Source: Bernardetia sp. ABR2-2B
Lineage (GTDB): Bacteria > Bacteroidota > Bacteroidia > Cytophagales > Bernardetiaceae
NCBI RefSeq assembly: GCF_037126435.1
Contig: NZ_CP147020.1
Location: forward strand, 2,345,293 to 2,409,292
DNA length: 64,000 bases
Reading direction: 5' to 3'
The position numbers were made by a program, and so were the translations under genes. Positions 47,205 through 55,109 of the stretch are shown piece after piece. The notes beneath the pieces are model-generated. The model was not told where the DNA came from. It saw only the letters and a program-made list of their open reading frames with translations, and did no database searches. The number at the start of each line of letters is the position of its first letter. The stretch's first letter is position 1.

Positions 47205-49496
47205 TTATACAAATTTTCTAAAGGAACGTACTGTTTCAAAAATACCTATTGAAATAAAAATTCTTCCCATAAAATCAAAAAACACAAAAAAAGGATTCTC
47301 AGAAAAATTTGGATTAACCTCTTTCATAAAATCTACTCTATGAACAGGATTTATATATTGAATCCAATAAGCTACTAAGTTATCACAAAAATACTTTGTG
47401 CCAGTTGTATTTAGTTCTAGAGTGTAACCAATATTATATAACATAAGACTAAAAAACATGAAACTGATTACTACTGTAATGATTGTAGCTTGTAAAAAGT
47501 TAGTACCAAAACTACTATATCCTTCAGATATTAATAGACTGATTAAAGAGGAATAATCTGAAGCAGATTTTTCTTTATCATATAAATACTTACGCAAATT
47601 ATTTTTAGATGCTTTATAATAGTCTAATTCTTCAGTTTTATCATTTTTATTTTTAGAAGATGTATATAAATCATTAAATATTTCATACAATTCTTTATGC
47701 TCTCCCTTTATTATCTGACCTTTTATTGGAAATGTGGAATTAAAAGTTTTCAAAGATGATAAGTCTACTTTCTTTATCTCTATACTACTAAATTTAGATA
47801 AATCAATATTTTTAAAAGTCGCATTTCCCAATGTCGAATTTAGTATTTTTAATGCTGTTTTTTCTTTAAAAGAAACTTGAAGAGCATTTACGATACTCTC
47901 TACTATTGCTATTATTGTTTCTGCACTCAGTTCTATATCTATTTCTTCTGTTTCTAACATTTCTGCTGCTCTTGCTGCTGTTTTATTTAGTTTTGTAGTT
48001 ATTTCTAGTGTCTCTACTGCTTTTATTGCTTTTGTCTTTAAGGTTTCTACTATTATTTTTTCTTTTTCTATGATTGTCTTGTTTATTTCTGTTAATGCTA
48101 TTACTGTTATTGCTGCTACTTCATCTATATCATCTAAGTCATCTGCTTCTTTAAACTGCATTTCTAAACCTTTTATTTTCACATTCAATTCTTTCAGTTT
48201 TGTTTCTGCTAAATTTACTTCCTGTCTTGTTTGTTGCACTTCCTTTTTTGCAGTTTCTATTAGTTTTTTTGCTTCAATAGCTGCTCTTGGTATTGCAACT
48301 TTTGCTTCTTTCATTGCTATTACGGCTGCTTTTATTGCTATTTCTTTTGCAGCTTTTTTTGTTTTCCTTTCTGTTTCTATACTTTTTCTCTTTATTTTTT
48401 CTAAATCACTATTTATTTCAACACTTCCTTTTGATCTATTACCTTTTGTTTCTTTTAATTTTTCTTTTAATTCATTTATTTTTTCTATACGTTCTGTTAG
48501 TATCCGTTTTAGTTTTTCAGTGTCTCTTTCTGCATCTTTTATTTTATCTGCATCTAAGTGTGTTTTAAATTCTATTTTTATATACTTATATAGGTTATCA
48601 ATTTTTAATATTTCTTTTTTTGTTTTTTTTTCTTGTTCTATTAACTCTTCTTCTCGTTCTGCTATTGCTTGTTCATACTCTAATATTATCTGTCCTTTTT
48701 CTTTTTGTGTTTTTGCTATCCTTGCTTCTGTTTTTTCTGCTATTTCTATTGTTGCTTGTATTAATCTTGTTCGTATTATAGCCTCCATCATTGCTACTGT
48801 TGCTGTTGTTGTGATATGAAACTCTTGTATTATATTAGTATCAGATAAATCAATAGTACCTCCATTATAAAATCTGGATATTTCTAGTGTATGTAGACTA
48901 ACATTGTTTATGGATATTCTAACACCTGCATTATTATTCCCTTTTAAAGTTAAATGATTCAACTTTAAGTCTTTAATATCTACGTCTCTGTCATTTATAT
49001 TTAACTGAAAATCATTAAAAAAACTATCTTGTCCTTTAATATTAATAGAACGTTTATGAACAGACTTGCTATCATCTAACAAAAATTTACCAAGATTGCA
49101 ATCTTCTATATTTATAACCTCTAATTTACTTCCAGCTAAAAGCATATTATGAGATGATACTTTCTCAAAAGATACTTTTTTGAAAGATTCTCTAACAACT
49201 ATTATATCTTGTTTTTGAGATGATATAAATTTTATATTGAAGTCACATTCACACTCTATCAAATGGATTATTGGAGTTTTCAGAATAAAAGATAATTCAA
49301 TATTATTACTATCCTTACAAGTAAATGTACATTCTGAAAATGTAATTGATTCACTTGCATATAATTCGATTTCATGAAAAAGCATCTGAGAAGAAAAATC
49401 AATGTTAATTTTTTTAAATAAAACTACTCCTTGATTGCTGTGTTTTTTTCTTCTAATCTCCTGAATTAATTGGTAAGAAGTCATTGTATTGGGCAT
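47205..49496 (-). CDS. Beta-solenoid/coiled-coil/membrane protein, solenoid interrupted by about 315 coil residues
   Basis: Residues about 25-229 form short repeating strands of the pentapeptide or right-handed beta-helix type (NIKGQDSFFNDFQLNINDRD, IKDLKLNHLTLKG). Residues about 231-545 are a long Ala/Lys/Glu/Ile-rich coiled coil (KAAKEIAIKAAVIAMKEAKV). The solenoid resumes at about 546-590 (ILNSTLGNATFKNIDLSKFS). Then come a helix (LYEIFNDLYTSSKNK, about 603-617), two membrane helices (about 664-686 and 736-755) and FETVRSFRKFV at the end. The C-terminal half matches a Bacteroidota family of pentapeptide-repeat membrane proteins that lack the coil, so the coil looks inserted. The coil region is simple in sequence and T-rich on the plus strand. 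No function is known. Confidence 0.7.
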   Translation of the reverse strand: MPNTMTSYQLIQEIRRKKHSNQGVVLFKKINIDFSSQMLFHEIELYASESITFSECTFTCKDSNNIELSFILKTPIIHLIECECDFNIKFISSQKQDIIVVRESFKKVSFEKVSSHNMLLAGSKLEVINIEDCNLGKFLLDDSKSVHKRSINIKGQDSFFNDFQLNINDRDVDIKDLKLNHLTLKGNNNAGVRISINNVSLHTLEISRFYNGGTIDLSDTNIIQEFHITTTATVAMMEAIIRTRLIQATIEIAEKTEARIAKTQKEKGQIILEYEQAIAEREEELIEQEKKTKKEILKIDNLYKYIKIEFKTHLDADKIKDAERDTEKLKRILTERIEKINELKEKLKETKGNRSKGSVEINSDLEKIKRKSIETERKTKKAAKEIAIKAAVIAMKEAKVAIPRAAIEAKKLIETAKKEVQQTRQEVNLAETKLKELNVKIKGLEMQFKEADDLDDIDEVAAITVIALTEINKTIIEKEKIIVETLKTKAIKAVETLEITTKLNKTAARAAEMLETEEIDIELSAETIIAIVESIVNALQVSFKEKTALKILNSTLGNATFKNIDLSKFSSIEIKKVDLSSLKTFNSTFPIKGQIIKGEHKELYEIFNDLYTSSKNKNDKTEELDYYKASKNNLRKYLYDKEKSASDYSSLISLLISEGYSSFGTNFLQATIITVVISFMFFSLMLYNIGYTLELNTTGTKYFCDNLVAYWIQYINPVHRVDFMKEVNPNFSENPFFVFFDFMGRIFISIGIFETVRSFRKFV

Positions 49497-52086: not shown

Positions 52087-52093
52087 GAAGTAA

Positions 52094-52127
52094 AAAAGCC
52101 AAGTTATGAGAGTAATTTGGCTTTTAT
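52094..52127 (+). terminator. Terminator after PLP enzyme gene
   Basis: AAAAGCCAA (52094-52102) pairs perfectly with TTGGCTTTT (52117-52125). The T-run is short. Confidence 0.65.
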
Positions 52128-52180
52128 ACAAAAAATGAATTGACATAGATTTTTATTAAAAAACAAAAAGTAATTTACAA

Positions 52181-53380
52181 GTGGCTAGAGATGACTTTAA
52201 TGCTGATACCAAGAACAGACTTGCTAAGAGAGCAGGATATCAATGTTCGATATGCAAAAAACTTACAATTAGTGCATCAGAAGAATCTAATAAATCCGTT
52301 AATTCAACTGGAGTAGCAGCACACATTAGTGGAGCGTCAGATGGAAGAGGTAGCAGAAGATATGACCCTCAAATAAGTCATGAGGAGAGAAAAAGTATAG
52401 AAAATGGTATTTGGCTATGTTCAGAACATGCTAACTATATTGACAGAGATGAATTTAAATACTCTACAGAAAAGCTATTAAGTATTAAAAAGGAACATGA
52501 GAAACAAATAAGTTTAAAACATGAAGGGCTCGACATAAAGAACGGTTCTTTGTATGAAATAGAAGTAAATAATATATGTCTATTTAATTCAAATATTAAG
52601 ATTAGACTCAAAAAAAACAATGTATTTATTGGAAATAATGGTACAGGTAAATCAACACTTTGTCAAATAATTTCTTCATTAGAGAATAGTAAATATCTTA
52701 ATCTAATTAAATTAAAGTCAAAAGGACAAAATGGATATTTCAAGCTAAAATTTATTAAGTCCGTAAGTTCAAAGTACAGAGTGATTGTAAATTCTAATAG
52801 TAGAATTGAGTATGAGGTTGATGAAGTTGAAACACCTATTTTAGACTCTCCAGTAAAAACACTTTACTTAGAAGAAAAATTTATGGCTTATGTCAATAAT
52901 TCATATGATTTTAAAAGCATAACTACGGCTAAAAAAATTTCTAAGTTTTTTAATCTCAAAAAGAGTGAACTGATAAGTCTGTTATACTCTATTAGAAATA
53001 AAAGAAAGTATTTCATTCATGACTTGGAAATCACAAATAGTAAAGAGTTAGAGTTTAAAATAAAAAATTCTGCACCTTTTCTACCTCTAGCAAACCTTTC
53101 TGGTGGAGAATCAGTAAAAGTATGCCTTGAAATTATTTTACAATTAGCAATATATTTTTCTAAATTTCGTCCTACTATTCTTCTAATTGAAAAAGGTGTC
53201 ATACATTCTCTAGATACTGATGGAATAAAATATCTAATGAAAATTATCGTAGAAGAAAATTTTTTATTTCAGTTCATCTTTGTAGATTATGACAAGGAGA
53301 TGGATTACATCTATCCAGATATGAATGTCTTAAAGTTTATAAATGAGAATGGAGTGAGTAGTGTCAAAACAATAAATTGA
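52181..53380 (+). CDS. HNH-like nuclease fused to ABC/SMC-type ATPase
   Basis: The 399-residue protein (GTG start) joins two modules. N-terminal (about 1-105) is a treble-clef HNH-like domain: CSIC (22-25), VAAHISGAS (45-53; His48), ERKSIENGIWLC (69-80; Asn75, Cys80) and SEH with IDRD. C-terminal (about 125-399) is an ABC/RecF-type ATPase with Walker A GNNGTGKST (151-159) and signature LSGGES (306-311). The Walker B position reads TILLIEKG (332-339), with Glu337 and Lys338 where Asp-Glu is usual, so hydrolysis may be altered. Such nuclease-ATPase combinations occur in anti-phage systems such as Septu, where they are two genes. It is flanked by unrelated genes, as a single-gene unit. The defence role is inferred. 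Confidence 0.8.
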   Translation: MARDDFNADTKNRLAKRAGYQCSICKKLTISASEESNKSVNSTGVAAHISGASDGRGSRRYDPQISHEERKSIENGIWLCSEHANYIDRDEFKYSTEKLLSIKKEHEKQISLKHEGLDIKNGSLYEIEVNNICLFNSNIKIRLKKNNVFIGNNGTGKSTLCQIISSLENSKYLNLIKLKSKGQNGYFKLKFIKSVSSKYRVIVNSNSRIEYEVDEVETPILDSPVKTLYLEEKFMAYVNNSYDFKSITTAKKISKFFNLKKSELISLLYSIRNKRKYFIHDLEITNSKELEFKIKNSAPFLPLANLSGGESVKVCLEIILQLAIYFSKFRPTILLIEKGVIHSLDTDGIKYLMKIIVEENFLFQFIFVDYDKEMDYIYPDMNVLKFINENGVSSVKTIN

Positions 53381-53443
53381 TAAAGCTCCAAAACTATTAT
53401 CTATCTCACTTTTATATTTAATCTCTCTAACCAAGAAAATCAA

Positions 53444-54058
53444 ATGAAAATTTACTTACCACTAGCTCTATTATTACTAGCTTCATGTTCTTCAAAAGAG
53501 CAAAAAAACGATATTACTTCAGAAAATCAAGATAGTGTAACTGTTTTGGCAGAAAATATAGAAGTTACTACTGAAAACAATACTCCTAACGAAAAGAGTA
53601 TGGAAGTAACTGAAATAAAAGCATTGATAAATCAAGACTTTAAAAACCTAGATAAATTAATCCTCAAAAACGAATTTGGGGGAGGCGACTGTTTCGGAAC
53701 GTATCAGCAAAATAATATAAAAGAGAAAGGCTCTATTGCAACGATTTATAAAATGGATTGTAATGACTACGGTTTTACAAACTATCGTCTTATTTCATCA
53801 GAAGAAAATACACCTTTGTTTTTAGAAAAAGTGAAATATGAAAACGACATGTCAGGAGAGCAACAATTATTAGAAGAATGGGTTATCAACTTTCAAGATA
53901 CTTCTAAAGTGTATTACAGAAAAGCCGAAAAAGTAGATTATGAAATGACAACCATTGCAGATGATGTGAAATTTCAACTTTATGAAGGCAGCTCTTTAAA
54001 TATTAATGAAGGATTATCAGAAATAGAAGCTGGAAAGACAGAAGAGTTATATGAATAA
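53444..54058 (+). CDS. Lipoprotein of unknown function
   Basis: The 204-residue protein has a lipoprotein signal (LLASC, Cys15) and a Ser/Glu/Asn-rich linker (about 16-55), then a strand-rich domain with GGDCFGTYQQ and KMDCNDYGFTNY, two cysteines that could be disulfide-bonded. I cannot name the family. Its last 8 bp overlap the start of the next gene, so the two are translationally coupled. Confidence 0.65.
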   Translation: MKIYLPLALLLLASCSSKEQKNDITSENQDSVTVLAENIEVTTENNTPNEKSMEVTEIKALINQDFKNLDKLILKNEFGGGDCFGTYQQNNIKEKGSIATIYKMDCNDYGFTNYRLISSEENTPLFLEKVKYENDMSGEQQLLEEWVINFQDTSKVYYRKAEKVDYEMTTIADDVKFQLYEGSSLNINEGLSEIEAGKTEELYE

Positions 54059-54659
54059 AGAAATAATAAGTAGAATCAGAGAACTTGGAGGAACTACCAA
54101 GTCAGCCAGTTCATTACAAGAGTTTTTGCAAGGTATAGAATTTAATCATCCATTATATCCAAAAGAAAATTGGGGAAACGAATTGTATGGTGTAGATGAT
54201 TTCTATGATGATAATAAAAAACTCTACAAACAGAATAAAGACAAATTTTATGAACGTTTGATGGAACATTTTTTCTCTGACCACGAAATACCCTGTGGGC
54301 AAATGTTTTACAGAAAAAGATTGTTTACTCCTCTCACAAAAGGAACAACTGATTTTGAGGAGTGGGGAGATGATTTTGAAGATGAGGAAATGACTAATCT
54401 CAGCGAAGTCAAAAAAGTAGTTGGAAGTGGTAGTTTAGAATTTATGGAAATAGCTTATTCGTATGGCTTTCCTGATGGCTATTATATCTGTTTGTCAGAC
54501 CCTAACCCACAAAACCCAACTGTTTTTGGAACTGACCATGAAGTTTTTTTTGAAGAAATAACAAATGAAGGAGCATTTGAAGAGTTTTTAAAACGATTTT
54601 ATGCTCCATCAGAATTTCTTGAGGTAGTCAAAGATTACATTGAAGAAGAGAAACGATAA
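54051..54659 (+). CDS. SMI1/KNR4-like acidic protein
   Basis: This 202-residue acidic protein has no signal peptide. The C-terminal part (LEFMEIAYSYGFPDGYYICLSDPN, then VFGTDHEVFFEEITNEGAFEEFLKRF) resembles the end of SMI1/KNR4 (SUKH) family proteins, which in bacteria often act as immunity proteins against polymorphic toxins. The N-terminal part is not typical, so the family call is tentative. It overlaps the preceding lipoprotein gene by 8 bp. No toxin gene is visible nearby. Confidence 0.5.
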   Translation: MNKEIISRIRELGGTTKSASSLQEFLQGIEFNHPLYPKENWGNELYGVDDFYDDNKKLYKQNKDKFYERLMEHFFSDHEIPCGQMFYRKRLFTPLTKGTTDFEEWGDDFEDEEMTNLSEVKKVVGSGSLEFMEIAYSYGFPDGYYICLSDPNPQNPTVFGTDHEVFFEEITNEGAFEEFLKRFYAPSEFLEVVKDYIEEEKR

Positions 54660-54680
54660 AACACATATATATCGTCTAAA

Positions 54681-55109
54681 TTAATTCAATTCTACAGGAT
54701 AATTTTTACACATATAATTAAATGATTTTGTAATGATTTCCTTCAAAATATTCTTATCAATTTTATCTAACTTGGTAATATAAAGACAAGAAACGCTTGT
54801 TTTATGTTTCCCCAGTTTTTCTAGAAGTTCTTCATATTTTCCAAATCCATCAATAATATAGATAGACAAGTTTGCTTTTCGTGGTGCAAGTCCTGTAATA
54901 AAATAATCGCCTTCTCTTCCACTTTCATACTTATAATGATACGAACCAAAGCCAACCATACTATCTCCCCACATTTTGGGTTCAAGTCCAGTTATAGATT
55001 TCATTAATTCCAATACTTCAAAAGCATCTTTTTTGCGCTGCTCATTTTCTATACTGTTGAGGAAATTTTCAACGCTATTTTCGTTTTGTTTGATTTTGTT
55101 TTCTGACAT
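54681..55109 (-). CDS. DUF1801 domain protein
   Basis: The 142-residue protein matches DUF1801 (YdhG-like): VLELMKSITGLEPKMWGDSMVGFGSYHYKYESGREGDYFITGLAPRKANLSIYII is the family core (about 32-85). These small proteins are related in fold to iron-chaperone (frataxin-like) YdhG, but their role is unproven. It is convergent with the SMI1-like gene and lies 52 bp downstream of a frameshifted gene. Confidence 0.85.
   Translation of the reverse strand: MSENKIKQNENSVENFLNSIENEQRKKDAFEVLELMKSITGLEPKMWGDSMVGFGSYHYKYESGREGDYFITGLAPRKANLSIYIIDGFGKYEELLEKLGKHKTSVSCLYITKLDKIDKNILKEIITKSFNYMCKNYPVELN

Follow-up and report, generated by a model that had tools for sequence, protein, structure and literature searches.

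In CBASS, the effector Cap5 is a homodimer held together through its HNH domains, and switching has been proposed to occur when the sensor domains close around their ligand (PMC8568899). ABC heads close pairwise around ATP, and NTPs as well as AMP-PNP inhibit the nuclease of Gabija, with depletion proposed as its activator; the effect of AMP-PNP implies that nucleotide binding is enough (PMC10822852). Cleavage of DNA by Retron-Eco8 has been found to be independent of ATP hydrolysis (PMC12887533). For Septu EcB88, defence needs both the Walker A Lys and the Walker B Asp of PtuA, and tRNA has been reported as a Septu substrate (PMC13096335). In BREX neighbourhoods, genes for HNH nucleases are linked to genes for OLD-ABC ATPases as dyads (PMC12839542). 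Septu and these BREX HNH–OLD dyads thus already provide examples of defence by an HNH nuclease paired with an ABC ATPase.

A single gene that joins the two activities lies at positions 52181–53380 of the forward strand in the window, by which we mean the whole 64,000-nucleotide stretch of Bernardetia sp. ABR2-2B DNA analysed here. A preliminary description, made from the sequence alone, had proposed a one-chain nuclease–ATPase fusion, and this is borne out by profiles and by an AlphaFold model. The open reading frame encodes 399 amino acids from a GTG start codon, which is supported by the homologues, as their M-x-R-D-x-F opening falls at the same point. Full-length homologues in Flavobacterium and Pedobacter share 36–39% identity with the window protein, and homologue pairs with measurable divergence give dN/dS values of 0.05–0.28, the constraint on both halves indicating purifying selection. 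A chance open reading frame, an artefact and a decaying pseudogene were rejected on these grounds. Between this gene and the upstream PLP-enzyme gene stands a terminator-like hairpin (52090–52129, forward strand; −18.5 kcal/mol, z −7.4) that carries a T run on its 3′ side, suggesting that the fusion gene forms a transcription unit of its own. A simple scan did not report this hairpin, and a promoter scan was uninformative (12 sites against 8.7 expected).

The N-terminal 113 residues (52181–52519; all features of the gene are on the forward strand) constitute the HNH half. For this region, the sole Pfam hit, HNH_2, is weak and falls short of the cut-off; residues 1–118 match the PADLOC models for the CBASS endonuclease effector, SAVED_HNH and PDC-M68A at about 1e-14 to 1e-21. 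When the PDB was searched with a profile of 38 such HNH domains, only Cap5/SAVED-type chains and chains described as ‘HNH endonuclease’ were recovered, and His48 of the window protein was placed on Cap5 His56, the residue changed to alanine in the Cap5 mutant structure 9nlg. An AlphaFold model of the domain alone reached a pLDDT of 87, and its top Foldseek matches were Cap5 structures. VIA-align comparison of the model with the best of these gave Z scores of 14–16, the highest for an activated Cap5 tetramer; the retron Ec78 effector chain 9u9y_H gave a Z score of 5.0 (Cap5: 16). Profile, model and structural alignment agree that the domain is of the CBASS Cap5 type and thus probably not of the Septu PtuB type. 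The absence of a nuclease fold upon modelling, which had been named as grounds for abandoning the idea, was found to be untrue, and the earlier description of the protein as related to Septu in reverse order seems to name the wrong family, as the nuclease relates to Cap5 and probably not to PtuB.

The residues expected of such a nuclease are in place. Cys22 and Cys25 (52244–52255) form the first half of a predicted zinc site, His48 (52322–52324) is the predicted catalytic histidine, and Asn75, Cys80 and His83 (52403–52429) supply the N of HNH together with the other half of that zinc site; His83 and Asp88 complete the HNH pattern of the window protein. The positions given in the preliminary description for Cys22, Cys25, His48, Asn75 and Cys80 were all correct. 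Ten residues are identical in all 22 rows of the family alignment (Cys22, Cys25, His48, Asn75, Cys80, Asp88, His106, Gly156, Lys157 and Gln364), and position 83 is either His or Cys. No second HNH domain of the same type was found elsewhere in the genome.

Residues 121–399 (52541–53377) make up a compact SMC/Rad50/RecF-like ABC ATPase head. ABC_tran scores above the Pfam cut-off in the window protein, and Pfam gives no Toprim match. The AlphaFold model of the full protein (pLDDT 86, pTM 0.82, with a 17-row alignment as input) contains no coiled coil. Aligned with VIA-align, residues 121–398 fit SMC, Rad50 and RecF heads with Z scores of about 18.5–21.5 and an rmsd of 2.5–4 over about 240–270 residues, as illustrated by the SMC head 5xei (Z 21.5, rmsd 3.8, 265 residues) and RecF 5z67 (Z 19.2). 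In the sequence-profile search, AriA, Rad50, SMC, OLD and PtuA were the closest ATPases of solved structure.

Within this head, the Walker A motif GNNGTGKST (residues 151–159; 52631–52657) is intact, and its GK pair is invariant in all 22 rows. The ABC signature LSGGES (residues 306–311; 53096–53113) is intact in the window copy and degraded in many homologues, and the D-loop HSLD (residues 342–345; 53204–53215) is kept, with Asp345 present in 15 of 22 rows. The Walker B motif ILLIEK (residues 333–338; 53177–53194) is degenerate, Glu337 standing in for the Asp and Lys338 for the catalytic Glu. The switch region QFIFVDYD (residues 364–371; 53270–53293) opens with the invariant Gln364 and carries Tyr370 where the His is expected, and the protein has no clear Q-loop Gln. 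Of the features of SMC/Rad50/RecF-like ATPases, the head fold and Walker A are thus present, and the Walker B Asp-Glu pair and the switch His are absent. These readings confirm what had been noted at the outset, namely an intact Walker A and signature, a Walker B pair replaced by Glu337-Lys338 and a missing switch His. Judged from its motifs, the ATPase is probably hydrolysis-impaired, in support of the slow-hydrolysis enzyme suggested earlier; a lost catalytic Glu is by itself no proof of absent hydrolysis.

Set against the described systems, the window protein shares with Cap5 its HNH type (the zinc-site cysteines, His48 at the place of Cap5 His56 and a trailing long helix) and its domain order, with the effector first and the sensor second. 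It differs in having an SMC-like ABC head as its sensor instead of SAVED, and no cyclase gene stands alongside. Membership of CBASS was rejected because SAVED is missing, residues 121–398 being an SMC/RecF head (Z 19–21), and because there is no cyclase nearby: Pfam found no CD-NTase gene among the neighbours, and the genome's sole SMODS match is about 1.5 Mb distant. With the PtuA–PtuB systems of Septu and type I-A retrons, it shares the pairing of an ABC ATPase with an HNH nuclease, and PtuA chains are among the hits of the family profile (about 1e-6 to 1e-4). However, the window protein is one chain in reversed order with a degenerate Walker B and a compact head, and a sequence search of it found no PtuB-type HNH. 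Septu was accordingly set aside, given the single open reading frame without separate PtuA and PtuB genes, the missing Walker B Asp and an HNH domain that seems to be of another type.

GajA of Gabija, OLD and AriA of PARIS likewise have a Rad50/OLD-like ABC head controlling a nuclease, which in Gabija is nucleotide-inhibited (PMC10822852), and AriA and OLD are among the matches of the family profile. Here, in contrast, the nuclease is HNH rather than Toprim and the catalytic Glu is lost; the lack of a Toprim match and the N-terminal HNH domain in its stead led to the rejection of OLD/Gabija membership. In the BREX dyads, too, an HNH nuclease functions together with an ABC ATPase as part of a defence locus (PMC12839542), but the two are genomically linked there, whereas the window protein unites them in one polypeptide with a head that is probably hydrolysis-impaired. 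Proteins of the PADLOC PDC-M68A type and Shedu (SduA) variants carry the N-terminal HNH module as well; the match stops at about residue 118, and their C-terminal domains are unlike that of the window protein. A literature search found no description of a single-chain family of Cap5-type HNH and SMC head or of its loss of catalytic residues; an earlier description is possible.

The same HNH domain was also observed in other settings. At eight loci (L095, L099, L111, L112, L114, L125, L134 and L142), it heads proteins of about 1450–1570 residues with an APPGTGKT-type P-loop, which are probable HNH–STAND fusions. In two further genes (L011:488–1594 and L012:2989–4065), it is followed by a different C-terminal domain. 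One of this pair is a P2-EC46 lysogenic-conversion gene; the other comes immediately after a reverse transcriptase gene on a plasmid of Aureispira and is a possible retron or DRT effector.

Homologues of the whole fusion were collected by searching plasmids, viral contigs and GTDB genomes and extracting open reading frames; a search of viral contigs with the single protein had given no match. Besides the window copy, 21 untruncated full-length homologues were found, one of which (L014) is a near-copy of another (L013), and one further homologue (L078) is truncated. They are carried on chromosomes, plasmids and viral contigs in six phyla: Bacteroidota, Bacillota, Verrucomicrobiota, Pseudomonadota, Myxococcota and Actinomycetota. 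Five of the 22 rows retain the catalytic Glu; in the other 17, its place is taken by Ser (seven), Thr (three), His (two) or else Lys, Asn, Tyr, Met or Gln. The rows bearing the Glu cluster together on the tree as a single group (support 83/72; recovered in 82% of bootstrap trees), the Actinomycetota/Sorangium group, which keeps Asp-Glu. A switch His, read six positions after Gln364 in the alignment, is present in about one third of rows. As the HNH residues and Walker A are kept while the predicted hydrolysis residues drift, the loss of the latter, on the alignment, characterizes most of the family and is not peculiar to the window copy. The family is nevertheless not uniform, since Asp-Glu persists in one group.

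The neighbourhoods of the homologues offer further insight into their role. At two loci (L068 and L069), the gene lies directly downstream of GajA–GajB. At another (L067), it belongs to a type I R-M operon, where it is preceded by a specificity gene and one of the Schlafen/AlbA_2 type and overlaps HsdR at the latter's start. Elsewhere, it comes after a TIR gene of the CAP12/Pycsar type (L065), lies about 4 kb from HsdR (L086), has an OLD-Toprim gene nearby (L070), shares a Priestia plasmid with nearby R-M genes and an integrase (L006) or follows phage tail-fibre genes (L017). The copy at L110 adjoins an AAA_13 gene, AAA_13 being the PrrC/RloC family. At L066, no defence neighbour was evident from open reading frame sizes, the sole basis for that judgement. 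Given the defence neighbours at several loci and the copies on phage contigs, a defence role is likely for the family. The role first put forward from the sequence thereby gains support from homologues that adjoin Gabija, type I R-M and TIR genes, and the contrary expectation that homologues would consistently occupy core, non-defence contexts turned out to be untrue when looked at. The isolated position that had been described holds for the window, where the gene is solitary, but not for several homologues, whose genes lie within other defence operons or immediately after them.

In an alphaproteobacterial group, a conserved partner gene overlaps the 3′ end of the fusion gene (L077:11203–12378, L084:11200–12375 and L008:9223–10368). 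The L077 and L008 partner genes show 75% identity; they have no Pfam or PADLOC match, and a PDW...AIGEAKGSH stretch resembles the motif of PD-(D/E)xK nucleases. The copy at L084, labelled Bacillus sp. 2B10, is 95% identical to that of Brevundimonas (L077), and its partner gene agrees in size and position; the Bacillus label of that assembly may therefore be wrong or the assembly contaminated.

No defence genes stand beside the window copy. PADLOC matched the 52 other open reading frames of the window only to the models PDC-S70, mad2 and CARF_ADA, and with so few matches the window is unlike a defence island. The PDC-S70 match (best E 6e-47) and the mad2 match belong to two different open reading frames, neither among the ten that were scanned singly. 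A 763-residue open reading frame on the reverse strand (47205–49496) was matched by neither Pfam nor PADLOC; its long middle part is rich in Lys and Glu and coiled-coil-like, and its C-terminal part has hydrophobic segments. Also located between the PLP-enzyme gene and gltX (52090–54730) are a gene for a 204-residue lipoprotein-like product and one for a 202-residue protein, of which a relative occurs in one of six congeners, at a different place.

Full-length matches to the fusion gene are absent from the six Bernardetia congeners searched and from the other 394 of the 395 Bacteroidota genomes sampled. All seven genomes of the genus carry the upstream PLP gene, and two congeners have gltX in a syntenic position. 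The interval differs in these two: both have a beta-lactamase-like gene there, the one that was scanned also has a cNMP-binding gene, and none of the other genes found in this slot is a defence gene. The variability of the interval and the absence of the gene from congeners fit a gain by horizontal transfer into a variable slot. The family as a whole is rare yet widely scattered, with a sporadic distribution.

Taken together, we consider it fairly probable that the window protein acts in immunity as an HNH nuclease under the control of a head that binds nucleotide but is impaired in hydrolysis. Two chains would pair both through their Cap5-like HNH domains and through their ABC heads, and the paired heads would close around bound nucleotide. 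With the catalytic Glu, the switch His and a clear Q-loop Gln gone, this nucleotide would be held without turnover. The head dimer would then serve as a ligand-controlled latch in place of the cyclic-nucleotide-sensing SAVED domain of Cap5; since Cap5 dimerizes through HNH and ABC heads close in pairs, an exchange of SAVED for such a head makes an ATP-latched HNH pair plausible. At normal cellular ATP, the heads would be closed and the HNH pair kept inactive. During infection, falling NTP or dNTP levels, or the binding of a phage nucleic acid or protein to the heads, would change the head state, upon which the HNH active site would become ordered and cut DNA or another nucleic acid. The substrate might be DNA, or tRNA as with Septu, and the infected cell would probably be killed or arrested.

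The direction of this gating, from a nucleotide-occupied resting state to release by infection, is proposed tentatively. The inhibition of Gabija and the hydrolysis independence of Retron-Eco8, weighed with the contrary case of Septu EcB88, favour such a resting state only slightly over its converse, in which ATP acts as an activating glue. According to that alternative, which we regard as possible though doubtful, nucleotide-bound closed heads set off by a phage ligand would be the active state, as with engaged Rad50/SMC heads. It agrees with the proposal that Cap5 is activated upon sensor closure around its ligand (PMC8568899) and with the need of Septu defence for the Lys of Walker A and the Asp of Walker B in PtuA (PMC13096335), but ATP is constantly millimolar, so a non-hydrolysing, ATP-activated nuclease would presumably need another brake against self-toxicity. 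By analogy, the Walker B need of Septu also argues against assuming that hydrolysis is dispensable in HNH/ABC defence. It is improbable that the head still hydrolyses ATP through Glu337 or a substitute and drives an ordinary DNA-scanning restriction nuclease like SMC/OLD-type systems: the window copy has an intact LSGGES and D-loop and one branch keeps Asp-Glu, yet the catalytic Glu is replaced in 17 of 22 rows, most rows lack the switch His and the window protein lacks a clear Q-loop Gln.

Adjacency to GajAB (L068 and L069), overlap with HsdR (L067) and the overlapping partner gene of the alphaproteobacterial group would also suit an accessory subunit of an adjoining system such as Gabija or type I R-M. 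A subunit role of this kind seems unlikely, as neighbours vary by locus with no constant partner across the family, and in the window the gene lacks a neighbour of that sort and is preceded by a terminator-like hairpin of its own. HNH domains are also found in homing endonucleases, and Rad50 and RecF heads work in repair. The alignment of the ATPase half with Rad50 and RecF would thus accord with a selfish, homing-type nuclease or an end-processing repair nuclease without an immune role; the HNH subtype, which is that of Cap5 and of PADLOC defence-candidate effectors, together with the sporadic distribution, defence neighbours and phage-borne copies, makes this very unlikely. The DNA-end gating of the preliminary description found no direct support. 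Returning to the nucleotide-latched nuclease, its fullest version is speculative: a distinct family in which a non-hydrolysing head dimer senses nucleotide occupancy directly, clamping the HNH pair shut when ATP is bound and letting it go upon nucleotide loss during infection or through phage nucleotide analogues, with no cyclase, second protein or turnover needed.

ABC ATPases govern many defence nucleases, including those of PtuA, GajA, OLD, AriA and PrrC, and may need ATP hydrolysis or only ATP binding to do so. With Walker A fixed and the catalytic Glu lost and free to vary, the HNH–ABC family provides a natural experiment that isolates the ATP-binding step in one small protein. The Cap5 HNH module, for its part, emerges as a portable effector joined to several sensors: SAVED, SMC-like heads, probable STAND-type NTPases and unknown domains. 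Used as a handle, this N-terminal module may help to find further single-gene defence candidates.
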